DNA of 64,000 nt, from NCBI RefSeq assembly GCF_016403105.1, contig NZ_CP046155.1, forward strand, positions 3,191,906-3,255,905. The letters run 5' to 3'. The position numbers and the translations under genes were made by a program. Under the pieces are notes generated by a model, which searched no databases, was not told where the DNA came from, and saw only the letters and a list, made by a program, of their open reading frames with translations. Position 1 is the first letter of the stretch. Each line of letters opens with the position of its first letter. This DNA comes from Leptolyngbya sp. BL0902. GTDB lineage: Bacteria; Cyanobacteriota; Cyanobacteriia; Phormidesmidales; Phormidesmidaceae. This document shows positions 23,150-29,817 of this stretch, piece after piece.

Positions 23150-24635
23150 CTACTAAGTACACACAACTGAGCTTTGGGCGAGTGACCATCCCTCAAAGAT
23201 GGCCTCAAATTTTCTAAGTCCTTGGCTCAAGGTACGAATGCCGGGTGGCGGTTGGGAGCGATAGCCCGACCATCCCCCCAGGCGTGCAATGAGCCAAGTG
23301 GCCCAAGGTAGGGAGCCTGGGGAGAAGGGATTCTGCTGTTTTCGGGTTCGCCCCTGCAACGTCGGCATCAACTGCTCCAGGCATTGCTGTTGCGGTTCGC
23401 TAAAGGTCACCGAGGCGGAGAGAGATTCATCGGCTCGACCGGTTTTCAGTTGGAGCAGCCTCAAGGTCACCATTAAGGCCAGGATGGTGAGGCGTTCAAT
23501 GGCCTTAACCGACTCCAGGCGGGTGGATTCAAGGTCAAGGCCGACTCGCTTAAGCAACGCAAAGAACTGTTCAATCTGCCAGCGCCACCGATACCACTGA
23601 ATCACTTGTAACGCTTGCTCCACGGTCGTGACGGGATGGGTCGTCAGTAAGCGCCAATGAATGGGCTTGACTCCGGCAGGTGGCGTGACCTCTTTGGCCT
23701 CCACGGCATAGAGGGAAACCAATTCGGGATAGTCGTGGGCATCGACCTTCCGGGGGCGGCGAAGGGTAACGGGCGTAAAGCGCACCGCTAGCCAAGCTTC
23801 ACGGGACTCTCGGTGACCACGAGGGTCGGCCAGCACCTCAACGGCATAGGTGCCCTCAACGGGTTGCTGAGCCAGTGTCTCGTAGAGCATCGTGGACTTA
23901 TCGTGCAGTCGTCGGTTACGGCAAGCGCGCACTAACAGGTGCGTGTGGGCATCAGGCACCCGAACCCACTCTTCGTAGATATCGCTCTCACGGTCACCCA
24001 CATGGGTCACACACACAGCATCCCCAGCCATCAAGGGGACTCGACTGTCCTCGGCAGAGCGCAGCCACTTATAGGATTCTTTCTCCTCAATCGGCAACTG
24101 AGGATAGTGCCGCTGATGTTTGTCGGGTCGTTTCGGGTCACGATGCCATCGTTGAATCGCACTCAAGCCCAAGGGAAAGCCACTCTCCGCATCGGCCACT
24201 AGGGTCGGATGGACGAAAAACCCGATATCACGATGATTGCCGACCACCCCGACGTCCTCAGGCTTGAGATGCTTCGCCTGAGCCTGCAAGTTAATTTCGC
24301 TACTGTCGCTGATAGCCAACACATGACGCCCCGCCACCTGTTGCTGGCAGTGGTCTGCGGCACTCCTGACCAGTTCTGAGACGCTCACATTCTGATTCTC
24401 CAGAAAGCGATAGTACCCTACCTGTTCCGCTCGGTTGCGGCTCATCGCCCGGATGTTCACCGATAGCGACTCACGCATAGAGTCATACAGCGCCGCCCCC
24501 TTTTTTCCAGGCGGCGATCCCCAAAAGCACTGCCCTGTGATACTTCAGCGTGAATTAGGATAGGATTTTCCACCGCAATTCCCCCACGATTACTAACCGC
24601 ATCCTACTCCAACCTGACTTGTGTGTACTTAGTAG
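23150..24635 (-). mobile_element. IS4-family insertion sequence with 11-bp target duplication
   Basis: The ends are CTACTAAGTACACACAA (23150-23166) and its exact inverse (24619-24635), extending imperfectly for a few more bases. Both sides carry the direct repeat CCCGCCCTGGG (23139-23149 and 24636-24646), an 11-bp target-site duplication, within the range known for IS4 elements. Length is 1486 bp. Perfect ends and perfect duplication indicate a recent insertion. Confidence 0.95.
23153..24573 (-). pseudogene. IS4-family transposase, frame interrupted at a homopolymer
   Basis: The main frame (ATG 24478 to stop 23153, 441 residues) carries the DDE fold and the IS4 signature Y-x2-R-x3-E-x6-K as YRWRWQIEQFFALLK. 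Its apparent N-terminus starts inside the conserved region. In another frame, GTG 24573 encodes a typical IS4 start, ENPILIHAEVSQGSAFGDRRLEKRG, which then runs into the body only if one base is added at the A6G5 run (24496-24506). So the element either has a one-base deletion or relies on frameshifting or slippage there. The stop codon lies in the terminal inverted repeat. Confidence 0.85.
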
Positions 24636-26467: not shown

Positions 26468-26531
26468 TATGCGGAAATTATTGATATAACTACCCTGTAG
26501 GGGGCAGTTATACGGAAATCATCAGTATAAT
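26468..26531 (+). promoter_or_regulatory. operator-like direct and inverted repeats upstream of the PRTase/NADAR operon
   Basis: Two related 23-bp boxes (26468-26490 and 26509-26531), about 17 of 23 positions identical, share TATxCGGAAAT and TATAA and are spaced 41 bp, close to four helical turns. Between them TATAACT (26485-26491) is the inverse of AGTTATA (26506-26512), around a CCC/GGG core. The sites lie 130-190 bp before the PRTase start in an AT-rich gap (26370-26661). Binding by the NADAR protein's winged-helix-like tail is a testable guess. Confidence 0.45.
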
Positions 26532-26661: not shown

Positions 26662-27735
26662 ATGACTAATCAGCGCCAGACTTTACTTCAGTCTATTGCA
26701 ACGATAGTTGCCGATTACAGGCAAGGCGAAATCGCTGCAATTGATCCAAATCATATAGATAGATGGGTAAGGCAATTCAGTGAATTTGGTTTTGATGATG
26801 AAGCACAGATCATTATTCTCGGCGAGATGGAGCGCATCTTAAAGTCTTACTATATCTCTCGGATCTGTGCTCAAAGCTTTCTCACCAATGTCTTGACTTC
26901 CCAAAAACTGTTTGGAGATAATCCCGCTGCAACGATACGGAACGCTCAATTCCTACAAATTCAGAGGAAGGGAAACAGTCAGCACGACTTACTGGCTCTT
27001 TGCGAACCAATTCTGCAATCTAAGTATGGATTGAGTTTGAGAGATTGTGGAAGCTCCCCAGCTATATACATTTACTTTGATGATTGTCTTTACTCTGGAA
27101 ATACGGCATGGCGTGATGTTAATGCATGGATGCCTAATGCTGCAAAAGGGACAACTTTACACTTGATATTTTTTGCTTTTCATACTGAAGGGCTTAGATA
27201 CTCACGAAGACAAATTGAATCAGAAGCCCAAAAGTATGACGTTAATATCAAATTTTGGCGGCTTCACAAATTTCATAATTCACGATGGAATCCATCACAA
27301 TTCGACTGCTTCTGGGCATTGCAAACTTCTGGAGATGAATTTATTGATAGATATCTGAAAGAAATAGATGAACGCCGTCAAAATTCTAATCGAAGCTTGC
27401 CAGATCTATTTCGTCCCGCCAATATGCCGAAACAGGATAAAATTTTTTCCTCGGCTGTTGCCCGTAATCTGATCGAATACGCTTTTCTAAAAGTTGGTGC
27501 GTACATTGTTTCACTCCCCAGAAATCCAAATGCGAGTATGAAACCTTTGGGGTACGACTATTTTGACTCTTTAGGTTTTGGCGCAATTTTTATAACATAT
27601 CGTAATATCGCAAACAATTGTCCATTGGCACTATGGTGGGGTGATCCCCACAAGGCTTATCCGCTAAATACTTGGTATCCGCTTTTTCCTCGGACAGTTA
27701 ATACTACGCAAGCCCCAGGGTGGGAGGGATTCTGA
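26662..27735 (+). CDS. phosphoribosyltransferase-like protein (PRTase-CE type), first gene of a putative conflict operon
   Basis: 357 residues from ATG 26662. The key element is YIYFDDCLYSGNTAW (around residues 136-150), matching the PRPP-binding loop of type I phosphoribosyltransferases (DDxxxTGxT with Ser for Thr). The all-helical N-terminus (residues 1-120) and the C-terminal 100 residues are not familiar. Related PRTase domains have been described in bacterial conflict systems. The gene is visibly AT-richer than its neighbours, with different codon use, suggesting transfer. Its stop is two bases before the NADAR start. No metabolic partner genes are near. Confidence 0.7.
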   Translation: MTNQRQTLLQSIATIVADYRQGEIAAIDPNHIDRWVRQFSEFGFDDEAQIIILGEMERILKSYYISRICAQSFLTNVLTSQKLFGDNPAATIRNAQFLQIQRKGNSQHDLLALCEPILQSKYGLSLRDCGSSPAIYIYFDDCLYSGNTAWRDVNAWMPNAAKGTTLHLIFFAFHTEGLRYSRRQIESEAQKYDVNIKFWRLHKFHNSRWNPSQFDCFWALQTSGDEFIDRYLKEIDERRQNSNRSLPDLFRPANMPKQDKIFSSAVARNLIEYAFLKVGAYIVSLPRNPNASMKPLGYDYFDSLGFGAIFITYRNIANNCPLALWWGDPHKAYPLNTWYPLFPRTVNTTQAPGWEGF

Positions 27736-27737
27736 CG

Positions 27738-28703
27738 ATGGTATCAGTAATGAAGTTTCCTGAGACAAGAACTTATACTAGGCAGGAGTCCATTACTTTC
27801 CGCAAGACCGCTGAAAGATTCGGCGGTTTGTCGAATATGGCGGGAGGCTACCTGCTGAATGTCAATGGTGTAAAAATTTTGACCTCAGAGGCATTATATC
27901 AAGCCTGTCGTTTTCCCCATCTACCTGAAGTTCAGCGTCAAATTATTGCTGAACGCAGTCCAATGACGGCAAAGATGAGAAGTAAGCCTTACCGTGACAA
28001 CTCTCGTTCTGATTGGGACATAGTCCGAACAAAGATCATGCGTTGGTGTTTACAAGTAAAGCTTGTTCAAAACTGGGAGAAGTTTAGCAAGCTTTTACTC
28101 GAAACAGGAGACTTGCCAATTGTTGAAGACTCTCGAAAAGATTCTTTTTGGGGTGCCAAACCAGAAGACGAGGAAATTCTTGTTGGCGCTAATGTCCTTG
28201 GACGCTTATTAATGCAACTAAGAGAACAGATGAAAAATGAGGAAATTACTCCTCAAACCATCATAAATCCTCTTCCTATTTCAGATTTTTTGTTGTACGG
28301 ACGAGAAATTAACTCAATCTCAAAAGATGGCGAATATTACTTAGCTAAATACAGCAATTTCTTAGAAGATGAAGCAACATCTAGTCATTTGAATTTAAGC
28401 TCAAGTGGAAATGAGGCTCATTCTTGTGACGAAAGAAATTTGGCTTTCAACTTAGAGGAAGATCTGGTTAATCAATCTCGACTTGAATTTGATGAGTATG
28501 ACAGTTTGCAGTTTATTCTGCCACATATAGTAGAGAGTTTGCAAAAAGCTGAACGCACTGACAAAGAGCTAGCCGAACTCTTTAAAACCAATCTAGCGCA
28601 GATGCGTGAGTGGCTGAAGAGAGCTGTGCAGCTACGTAAGATTAGAAAAATTTCTAAGCCTGTTAGGTACGTTGCAGAATCTCAATTACCTTTAATCCGT
28701 TAG
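27738..28703 (+). CDS. NADAR-family protein with C-terminal winged-helix-like tail
   Basis: 321 residues from ATG 27738, with GGGAGGGA upstream. Residues 15-165 match the NADAR/YbiA fold: FGGLSNMAGG, SEALYQACRF, AKMRSKPY, MRWCLQVKLVQN and DSFWGAKP. NADAR proteins act on ADP-ribosyl or NAD-derived substrates; some remove ADP-ribose from guanine in toxin-antitoxin pairs. After a variable stretch, residues 255-321 form a helix-turn-helix pattern (TDKELAELFKTNLAQMREWL, then LRKIRKISKPVRYV) resembling DprA-type winged helices. It is tightly coupled to the PRTase gene and equally AT-rich. Role as antitoxin, repressor or effector is inference. Confidence 0.8.
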   Translation: MVSVMKFPETRTYTRQESITFRKTAERFGGLSNMAGGYLLNVNGVKILTSEALYQACRFPHLPEVQRQIIAERSPMTAKMRSKPYRDNSRSDWDIVRTKIMRWCLQVKLVQNWEKFSKLLLETGDLPIVEDSRKDSFWGAKPEDEEILVGANVLGRLLMQLREQMKNEEITPQTIINPLPISDFLLYGREINSISKDGEYYLAKYSNFLEDEATSSHLNLSSSGNEAHSCDERNLAFNLEEDLVNQSRLEFDEYDSLQFILPHIVESLQKAERTDKELAELFKTNLAQMREWLKRAVQLRKIRKISKPVRYVAESQLPLIR

Positions 28704-28781
28704 CCTATAGAGTGGACATGGCCAACCATTATGCCCATATAGTTTTACTACTTTGCTGTGTTGGCTAAGCCCGCCCTACTT

Positions 28782-28931
28782 ACTAATTAAGCCAATGAGC
28801 CTGAGATAGGATAGAAGCAAGTCATCATGGGGCTAAACTATGACTCCAAAACTTGAAGTCGCCCTTGCCGCCATCCAGCCGCTTTCACCCGCAGAGCGCC
28901 AGCAACTCCTGCAAATTCTTACCCAAGACGA
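28782..28931. repeat. direct repeat, left copy
   Basis: About 150 bp, from ACTAATTAAGCCAATG through the first 30 codons of an antitoxin-like gene, repeated at 29668-29817 with high identity. The two copies bracket the two-gene module at 29010-29589. Confidence 0.85.
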
Positions 28932-29589: not shown

Positions 29590-29667
29590 GCCCGCAGGGT
29601 AAACATTGCCCACTATTACTCCTGTAGAGGTCTATTACTTGGCTATGTGGGTCCTACTCTCCTAATC

Positions 29668-29817
29668 ACTAATTAAGCCAATGTGTCTGAGATAGGAGAG
29701 AAGCAAGTCATTATAGGGCTGAACGATGACACCACAACTTGAAGCCGCCCTCGCCGCCCTCCAGCCGCTTTCACCCGCCGAGCGCCAGCAACTCCTGCAA
29801 ATTCTTACCCAAGACGA
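29668..29817. repeat. direct repeat, right copy
   Basis: Partner of 28782-28931. Recombination between the copies would delete the 29010-29589 module and one repeat. Confidence 0.85.

Follow-up and report, generated by a model that had tools for sequence, protein, structure and literature searches.

A PRTase–NADAR gene pair of Leptolyngbya sp. BL0902 belongs to the DS-32 antiphage family and ends in a winged helix where relatives carry other, often DNA-linked modules

From the genome of the cyanobacterium Leptolyngbya sp. BL0902 we analyzed a stretch of 64,000 nucleotides (contig NZ_CP046155.1, positions 3,191,906 to 3,255,905), hereafter called the window, with respect to two neighboring genes, termed gene A and gene B. 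An earlier note, made from the letters of the sequence, had described them as two tightly spaced AT-rich genes, one with a loop of the phosphoribosyl pyrophosphate (PRPP) type and the other with a NADAR domain fused to a C-terminal helix-turn-helix (HTH)-like segment, and had proposed a new conflict system built around a phosphoribosyltransferase (PRTase). Both reading frames are present on the plus strand, with the following features, for which the predicted local distance difference test (pLDDT) is given where a model was used:

26662..27735, plus strand: gene A, a PRTase-CE protein of 357 aa, component 1 of DS-32
27070..27108, plus strand: PRPP-loop-like segment IYFDDCLYSGNTA of gene A, with both Asp and the Gly invariant (alignments A1 and A3)
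27722..27728, plus strand: putative ribosome-binding site of gene B, GGGAGGG, inside the end of gene A, read from the sequence
27738..28703, plus strand: gene B, NADAR plus winged helix, 321 aa from ATG 27738, component 2 of DS-32
27798..28232, plus strand: NADAR domain of gene B (Pfam match and YbiA fold match)
28338..28502, plus strand: low-confidence linker, about residues 201-255 (block pLDDT 41-63)
28503..28682, plus strand: winged helix resembling the PsyrA C-terminus, about residues 256-315 (model, fold matches and PADLOC PsyrA)
28683..28697, plus strand: C-terminal QLPLI, loosely like a sliding-clamp peptide and outside the strict published consensus

The PRTase gene comes first, and 2 nt separate its stop from the ATG at 27738, which is the most likely start of gene B judging from the sequence, the listed GTG at 27720 being the alternative. 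The GC content is 0.41-0.42 across 27-29 kb of the window, compared to 0.56-0.60 in the 3 kb preceding 26 kb, 0.49-0.51 in about 2 kb downstream of the pair and 0.53-0.63 over most of the window. The tight spacing and the AT richness described before are thus both found.

Comparison with the NCBIfam models assigned both proteins to an already named system. Gene A reaches 379 bits against NF053875 (DS32_1_antiphage, cut-off 250) and gene B 292 bits against NF053876 (DS32_2_antiphage, cut-off 240), and the pair is almost certainly a cyanobacterial member of the DS-32 antiphage system, with an antiphage role ascribed to it by family membership. The idea that PRTase and NADAR act as one unit of a conflict system is therefore borne out by the family models, and the claim that the system is new had to be dropped, as both proteins lie over the DS-32 cut-offs. 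The DS numbers stem from DefensePredictor, for which 42 of 94 tested E. coli units are reported to have protected against phage (PMC13092281; papers are cited by PMC number, each for the part drawn on here). The main text of that paper mentions NADAR and PRTase domains and the name DS-32 was not found in it, so that it is the NCBIfam names that equate DS-32 with this pair. DS-32 of E. coli is organized like the window pair, with a PRTase-like gene and, immediately behind it, a NADAR gene. Its NADAR protein has about 205 aa and ends in GQSLSLF, whereas gene B adds a linker, a PsyrA-like winged helix and the QLPLI end. The E. coli type (L133) scores 313 and 257 bits against the two DS-32 models, and a type from viral contigs (L136) scores 273 and 263 bits.

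Structure prediction and fold searches for both proteins gave a PRTase fold for gene A and a NADAR domain plus winged helix for gene B (the fold families named are those among the matches listed). Residues 32-344 of gene A match Pfam PRTase-CE (PF24390, E 7e-56), and the AlphaFold2 model, computed with 62 sequences, has a mean pLDDT of 94 and a predicted template modeling score (pTM) of 0.91. The loop YFDDCLYSGNTA is located within the PRTase fold of this predicted structure; its Asp pair and Gly are invariant in the 62 aligned sequences, and its final residue is Thr in gene A and Arg in most of the 89 sequence clusters described below. Ranked by E-value, Foldseek put an unrelated GRAS protein from plants first (template modeling score 0.18, root mean square deviation (rmsd) 21), and the next rows were uracil and orotate PRTases, as partial matches with a probability of up to 1.00. 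A second fold search against the PDB placed uracil PRTase at the top (Z 9.7, rmsd 2.5 over 119 residues), with PyrR, orotate PRTase, PRPP synthetase and the hypoxanthine-guanine and adenine PRTases in further rows; nearly all rows were PRTases or PRPP-binding relatives, and the one clearly unrelated entry stood at rank 33. The PRPP-type loop read from the letters is thus placed in a PRTase fold, and on the model gene A is a type I PRTase core with a PRPP loop and putative catalysis. A second PRTase-CE domain occurs in the same genome (L014, 4861-8019, minus strand), where it forms the C-terminal domain of a 1,053-aa AAA/STAND-like NTPase protein (PF24390, E 8e-58; PADLOC PRTase_III-A, E 8e-41), and a long frame of similar kind in genome G262 also matches PRTase-CE.

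Gene B matches Pfam NADAR (PF08719, E 4e-25), with a pLDDT of about 97 in the NADAR core and block values of 91-97 over residues 261-310. Its core superimposes on YbiA (2b3w; Z 15.5, rmsd 2.2 over 147) and on the Phytophthora NADAR (Z 14.9), YbiA being the closer of the two solved NADARs matched. The C-terminal part finds winged helices of the MarR, ArsR and Z-alpha type (Z about 10), which gives the HTH-like segment of the earlier note a definite fold, and it matches positions 328-395 of the PADLOC PsyrA profile with an E-value of 2.9e-7. Eight other cyanobacterial NADARs were compared with the same profile, and the C-terminus matches it in 8/8 (E-values from 4e-5 to 7e-9). In the family alignment E51 and E130 of the NADAR domain are invariant and R58 is conserved to at least 90%; R58 is aligned opposite a Lys in YbiA, and the TIGR02464 score of gene B is 73.6 at a cut-off of 73.7. 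I128 sits two residues ahead of E130, both being invariant in alignment A4, and mapped by residue offset only it appears to correspond to the Asp position of DarT1-type NADARs (D171 of the C7 NADAR, which has E173). K95 of the C7 NADAR is taken as the equivalent of R58, and a K95R mutant still hydrolyzed guanine-ADP-ribose in vitro (PMC11543638).

The earlier note had let its proposal depend on whether homologues of the two genes are co-localized elsewhere. For this question 122 loci were collected by the PRTase alone, namely 80 from genome contigs (the best 80 of 103 from a search of 84,980 species with PRTase patterns), 34 from IMG/VR, searched likewise, and eight found earlier; the window's own locus, the weak loci L007-L010, the repeat stretches L014-L037 and orphan NADARs do not belong to the set. 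In 121/122 loci the NADAR profile match starts at a position from 7 nt ahead of the PRTase stop to 79 nt past it, and a simpler adjacency rule gave 106/114. Merging at 80% identity resulted in 89 clusters, and in two loci the PRTase is cut by the contig end. The sole exception to adjacency is L044, in which both genes are interrupted and which was kept in the cluster and tail counts and left out of the tree. This Gloeomargaritales locus (L044, 5971-9164, and L244) has a broken PRTase frame and a disrupted NADAR start, with intact copies found elsewhere. An intact PRTase without NADAR was not seen among the loci examined.

Within 386 genomes of the phylum, six have a PRTase over the cut-off, including the window genome, and a NADAR gene adjoins it in 6/6. 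Seven NADARs exceed the cut-off, among them that of G118, a genome without a PRTase-CE match; with the orphan NADAR of G035 (224 bits, slightly below the cut-off of 240), 2/8 of the NF053876-like genes stand without a PRTase. The G118 frame (L032, 7562-8320, minus strand) stops ahead of the winged helix. Generic NADAR matches occur in 100/386 genomes. A draw at class level, partly of the same genomes, yielded 9/388 genomes over the cut-off and four new intact NADARs (three distinct), all with a C-terminal extension, and no DS-32 match was found in 20 genomes of the same genus among those listed. Plasmid records with the PRTase contain the pair in 3/3 cases, further plasmid searches returning the same three records. 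Phage records gave no match, and two further scans of viral contigs returned the known contigs plus one (L194). When genome contigs were searched with the window PRTase as a single sequence no match was obtained, whereas the alignment-based search succeeded. In E. coli the L133 type is matched in 62/5,426 genomes, in 19 of them over at least 80% of its length, and 19 records are at least 99% identical. In the one E. coli record examined (L175, 6001-7633) the pair is surrounded by genes of lambdoid phages: on one side replication protein P and a disrupted gene for an MT-A70 methyltransferase, on the other ybcN/ninE. A plasmid record of Vibrio parahaemolyticus (L174, 3971-4600) contains a NADAR about 40% identical to the gene B core right behind a Dam-type DNA adenine methyltransferase; a PRTase is not annotated beside it, and this is perhaps another NADAR-methylase pairing.

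What follows the NADAR core differs among the 89 clusters: a short tail in 39, HsdS (the type I specificity subunit) in 28, a winged helix in nine, HmaB (an adenine methylase, DUF1156) in eight and a helix-hairpin-helix in three, with two unassigned. These classes were set by phmmer against few examples, and profile libraries were applied to 2 HsdS, 5 HmaB and all 3 helix-hairpin-helix fusions. The nine winged-helix clusters are all cyanobacterial and have a linker and a PsyrA-like winged helix as in gene B; in one of them an HmaA-like helicase is also part of the locus. Examples of the HsdS, HmaB and helix-hairpin-helix forms (L049, L066 and L106) each score above both DS-32 cut-offs, so that the fused forms belong to the DS-32 family. 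The NADAR extensions of L058 and L127, with about 300 and 160 aa, have no Pfam match and are possibly further module types. HsdM is encoded upstream on the same strand in 28/28 HsdS clusters, in some with an intervening gene, and HmaA in 8/8 HmaB clusters (36/36 partners in total); HsdR follows downstream in 25 and HmaC in six, and 4/5 loci without such a downstream gene end early. Neighbors of these types were found in 0/39 short-tail loci, and HsdM, HsdR, HmaA and HmaC had no match among nine window proteins scanned. Operons for type I restriction-modification (R-M) and Hma house relatives of the window pair whose NADAR continues into HsdS or HmaB.

Mapped onto the best PRTase tree, the module label has to change 20 times, compared to 42.6 times when labels are shuffled, which indicates that the module was repeatedly exchanged while the PRTase-NADAR core was kept together. 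The tree was built by a quick method and 28/86 of its inner branches are weak; restricted to well supported branches, the minimum is 5 changes for HsdS, 4 for HmaB and 9 for the short tail. The position of the winged helix is filled elsewhere by modules for DNA recognition and methylation, which points to an action on DNA beyond gene regulation alone. Fusions of the DS-32 NADAR to HsdS, HmaB, helix-hairpin-helix or winged helix were not found in print among the matches listed, in a search that reached a minority of the subscription papers and neither preprints nor the supplement of DefensePredictor; the same applies to a clamp-like tail on this NADAR, and searching PMC12839542 for such terms found none of them either. 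Overall, the pair itself is already described, its interchangeable DNA-linked NADAR modules were not found in print, and the cyanobacterial winged-helix form is a variant.

Sliding-clamp clients carry QL[S/D]LF or Q[aliphatic]x[L/M][F/L], besides a six-residue form (PMC13254535). Gene B ends in QLPLIR, whose fifth motif residue is I and not F or L, so the strict consensus is missed. Many short tails end in Q-x-x-hydrophobic-hydrophobic (QGDLF, QPALF, QINMF, and GQSLSLF in the E. coli type). The looser form Q..[LMIF][FLI], picked after the tails had been inspected, occurs in 19/39 short tails, where shuffling yields 1.1 on average (at most 6 in 1,000 shuffles and 7 in 2,000), in 7/9 cyanobacterial clusters, 0/28 HsdS, 2/8 HmaB and 1/3 helix-hairpin-helix clusters, and among the controls in 0/89 PRTase tails and 3/384 other frames of at least 150 aa; a slightly wider form is found in 1/20 generic cyanobacterial NADARs. 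A tail form fixed beforehand matched 3/5 new cyanobacterial tails, including the broken L044, and of the four new NADARs from the class-level draw three end in QLPLI or QLTLI while the fourth has QLKLL further inside. With the form extended by Q.[LM].LF, the tail is present in 27/49 clusters without a large module and in 3/39 with one (Fisher 3e-6). The further scans of viral contigs and plasmids added almost nothing, and outside cyanobacteria a clean hold-out for the motif is thus lacking. Clamp binding as an established property was rejected, as the strict motif fails and the looser form was chosen post hoc; clamp docking of NADAR tails may serve as a lead.

The closest functional comparison is PsyrTA/RqlHI (RqlH presumably being PsyrT), in which, as in the window pair, a PRTase partner stands together with a second protein that has a C-terminal HTH. 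In that system a RecQ-like helicase is joined to the PRTase and the body of the antitoxin resembles DprA/MoCo (PMC4670107), whereas gene A with its 357 aa is PRTase-CE only and the body of gene B is NADAR. RqlH without RqlI leads to SOS induction, filamentation and loss of growth, for which the PRTase domain is required, and mutants of the PRPP pocket lose most of the SOS induction and filamentation; RqlI, the PsyrA orthologue, counters RqlH and has the C-terminal HTH, and the authors' model has a DNA nucleotide altered by the PRTase and the alteration resolved by RqlI (PMC4670107). The second comparison is DarT1-NADAR (DarTG1), in which a NADAR is likewise the antidote against a DNA-modifying partner, and NADARs have been described to strip ADP-ribose from guanine (PMC11543638, PMC11125620). 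That partner is an ADP-ribosyltransferase, whereas gene A matches PRTase-CE only, and a DarT1-type pair was therefore rejected. Retron type III-A has a PRTase weakly like gene A (PADLOC E 2e-4); no reverse transcriptase was found among the nine window proteins scanned, the 532-aa frame upstream being outside that scan and a non-coding RNA not having been searched for.

With these comparisons in mind, our best explanation is that the DS-32 PRTase writes an adduct on DNA and a DNA-tethered NADAR erases it from self, to which we give a probability of roughly 45%. The PRTase would be the harmful partner and would use PRPP or a relative to place a ribosyl-type adduct on DNA bases, by which the replication of invading DNA would be blocked. 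The NADAR would be the antidote, an eraser of the adduct with an N-glycosidase fold, held on DNA by its C-terminal module, in gene B the winged helix, perhaps together with the QLPLI tail, and elsewhere HsdS, HmaB, a helix-hairpin-helix or a clamp-like tail. In this way the adduct would be cleared from host DNA and would stay on phage DNA. The role of a reversal enzyme, which had been considered for NADAR before, seems plausible given what the studied NADARs do. The repeated fusion of NADAR to R-M and DNA-binding parts speaks for DNA as the site of action, which we consider probable. For the assignment of PRTase as writer and NADAR as eraser, made by analogy, the odds are a little below even; the occurrence of orphan NADARs (2/8) but of no orphan intact PRTase is the asymmetry expected of poison and antidote, albeit in small numbers. 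More speculative, and on balance doubtful, is the general form of this idea, in which DS-32 would be the part so far visible of a novel DNA chemistry: DNA bases would receive a reversible mark, phosphoribosyl or a similar ribosyl group, from PRTase-CE writers, and NADAR erasers would be brought to self DNA by interchangeable means (HsdS and HmaB as subunits of methylation complexes, winged helix, helix-hairpin-helix or the replication clamp), the clamp-tail systems distinguishing self from phage by the owner of the clamp at the fork and the HsdS and HmaB systems by methylation.

Several points weigh against the writer-eraser explanation. The isolated PRTase domain of RqlH is not toxic, and many bacteria have rqlH without rqlI (PMC4670107), so a PRTase toxin need not adjoin its antidote. 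The K95R mutant of the C7 NADAR gave cells no rescue from DarT1 (PMC11543638), and the Asp that is important in DarT1-type NADARs appears to be replaced by Ile (I128) in gene B. Given the Arg at the loop end of most family members, the use of PRPP is not certain. As to the tether, the strict five-residue clamp consensus is present in 2/39 short tails and 2/9 cyanobacterial ones, the tail form fixed before the large search matched 0/36 new short tails, and the mutual exclusion of tail and large module is not significant when relatedness is allowed for (median p 0.125). The DNA modules could also serve sensing instead of erasing. Furthermore, no biochemical result for DS-32 was found, nor a mechanism for it in the searched text of PMC13092281.

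It might instead be that the pair is a small-molecule system, in which a nucleotide-type metabolite (PRPP, a nucleobase or a signal) is produced or broken down by the PRTase, the NADAR hydrolyzes the product and the modules only sense foreign DNA or localize the protein on it. PRTases and YbiA do act on small molecules, YbiA cleaving riboflavin intermediates (PMC11543638); the best fold matches of gene A are nucleotide-salvage PRTases, and the TIGR02464 score of gene B falls short of the cut-off by 0.1 (73.6 vs 73.7). The repeated fusion to HsdS, HmaB, helix-hairpin-helix and winged helix, however, is hard to explain if neither enzyme meets DNA, and we regard this possibility as unlikely.

Another explanation takes the cyanobacterial winged helix as a mere autorepressor of a toxin-antitoxin operon, so that its link to DNA would say nothing about the substrate. 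Besides the fold of the gene B C-terminus itself, a feature upstream of gene A would fit with such a role:

26468..26530, plus strand: two direct repeats of 22 nt that are 77% alike, overlapped by an inverted repeat of 11 nt, ahead of gene A

This repeat pair has the sole two copies genome-wide (degenerate pattern, up to 3 mismatches) and is a possible operator. Inspection by eye of 13 related upstream stretches, some being near copies, did not reveal such repeats, and in the place of the winged helix other lineages have HsdS, a methylase or a helix-hairpin-helix, none of which is a typical autorepressor. This makes mere autorepression quite improbable.

We give slightly less weight still to the NADAR as effector, that is, as a base-removing enzyme on modified phage DNA guided by HsdS, HmaB, winged helix or clamp, the PRTase regulating it or supplying a cofactor. 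An N-glycosidase fold joined to DNA-targeting modules would suit this role, but orphan NADARs exist while the loci examined showed no intact PRTase without its partner, generic NADARs are common (100/386 genomes), and the toxic part of RqlH is the PRTase (PMC4670107). A metabolic damage-control operon outside defense, which the YbiA-like NADAR might suggest, is highly improbable, as the DS-32 models are named antiphage, operons are shared with type I R-M and Hma, the E. coli copy lies amid phage genes and the distribution is sporadic (9/388 genomes over the cut-off).

As regards the surroundings, the 532-aa frame just upstream of gene A we take to be ChlB, and beyond it lies a DDE transposase gene (23153-24478, minus strand; PF01609, E 5e-8). 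Downstream of the pair, a 157-nt direct repeat (90% alike, at 28775-28931 and 29661-29817) is situated amid small genes. The pair had been placed at the edge of a toxin-antitoxin island; this is supported in part, the small frames downstream including a DUF6972 protein and one weak ParE-like match, which with 19.9 bits stays under its cut-off of 24.4. Scans for promoters and terminators gave site counts below the shuffle means, and a scan for tandem repeats found none.

For the DS-32 family, for which the searched text of PMC13092281 offers no mechanism, the NADAR fusions point to DNA. The likeness to PsyrTA gives a route to a question raised in 2015, namely whether PRTase domains modify DNA (PMC4670107). 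If the explanation of a PRTase writer and a DNA-tethered NADAR eraser were true, DS-32 would bring a new kind of reversible modification of DNA into immunity, and operons of type I R-M and Hma would have in it a second weapon that is not a nuclease.

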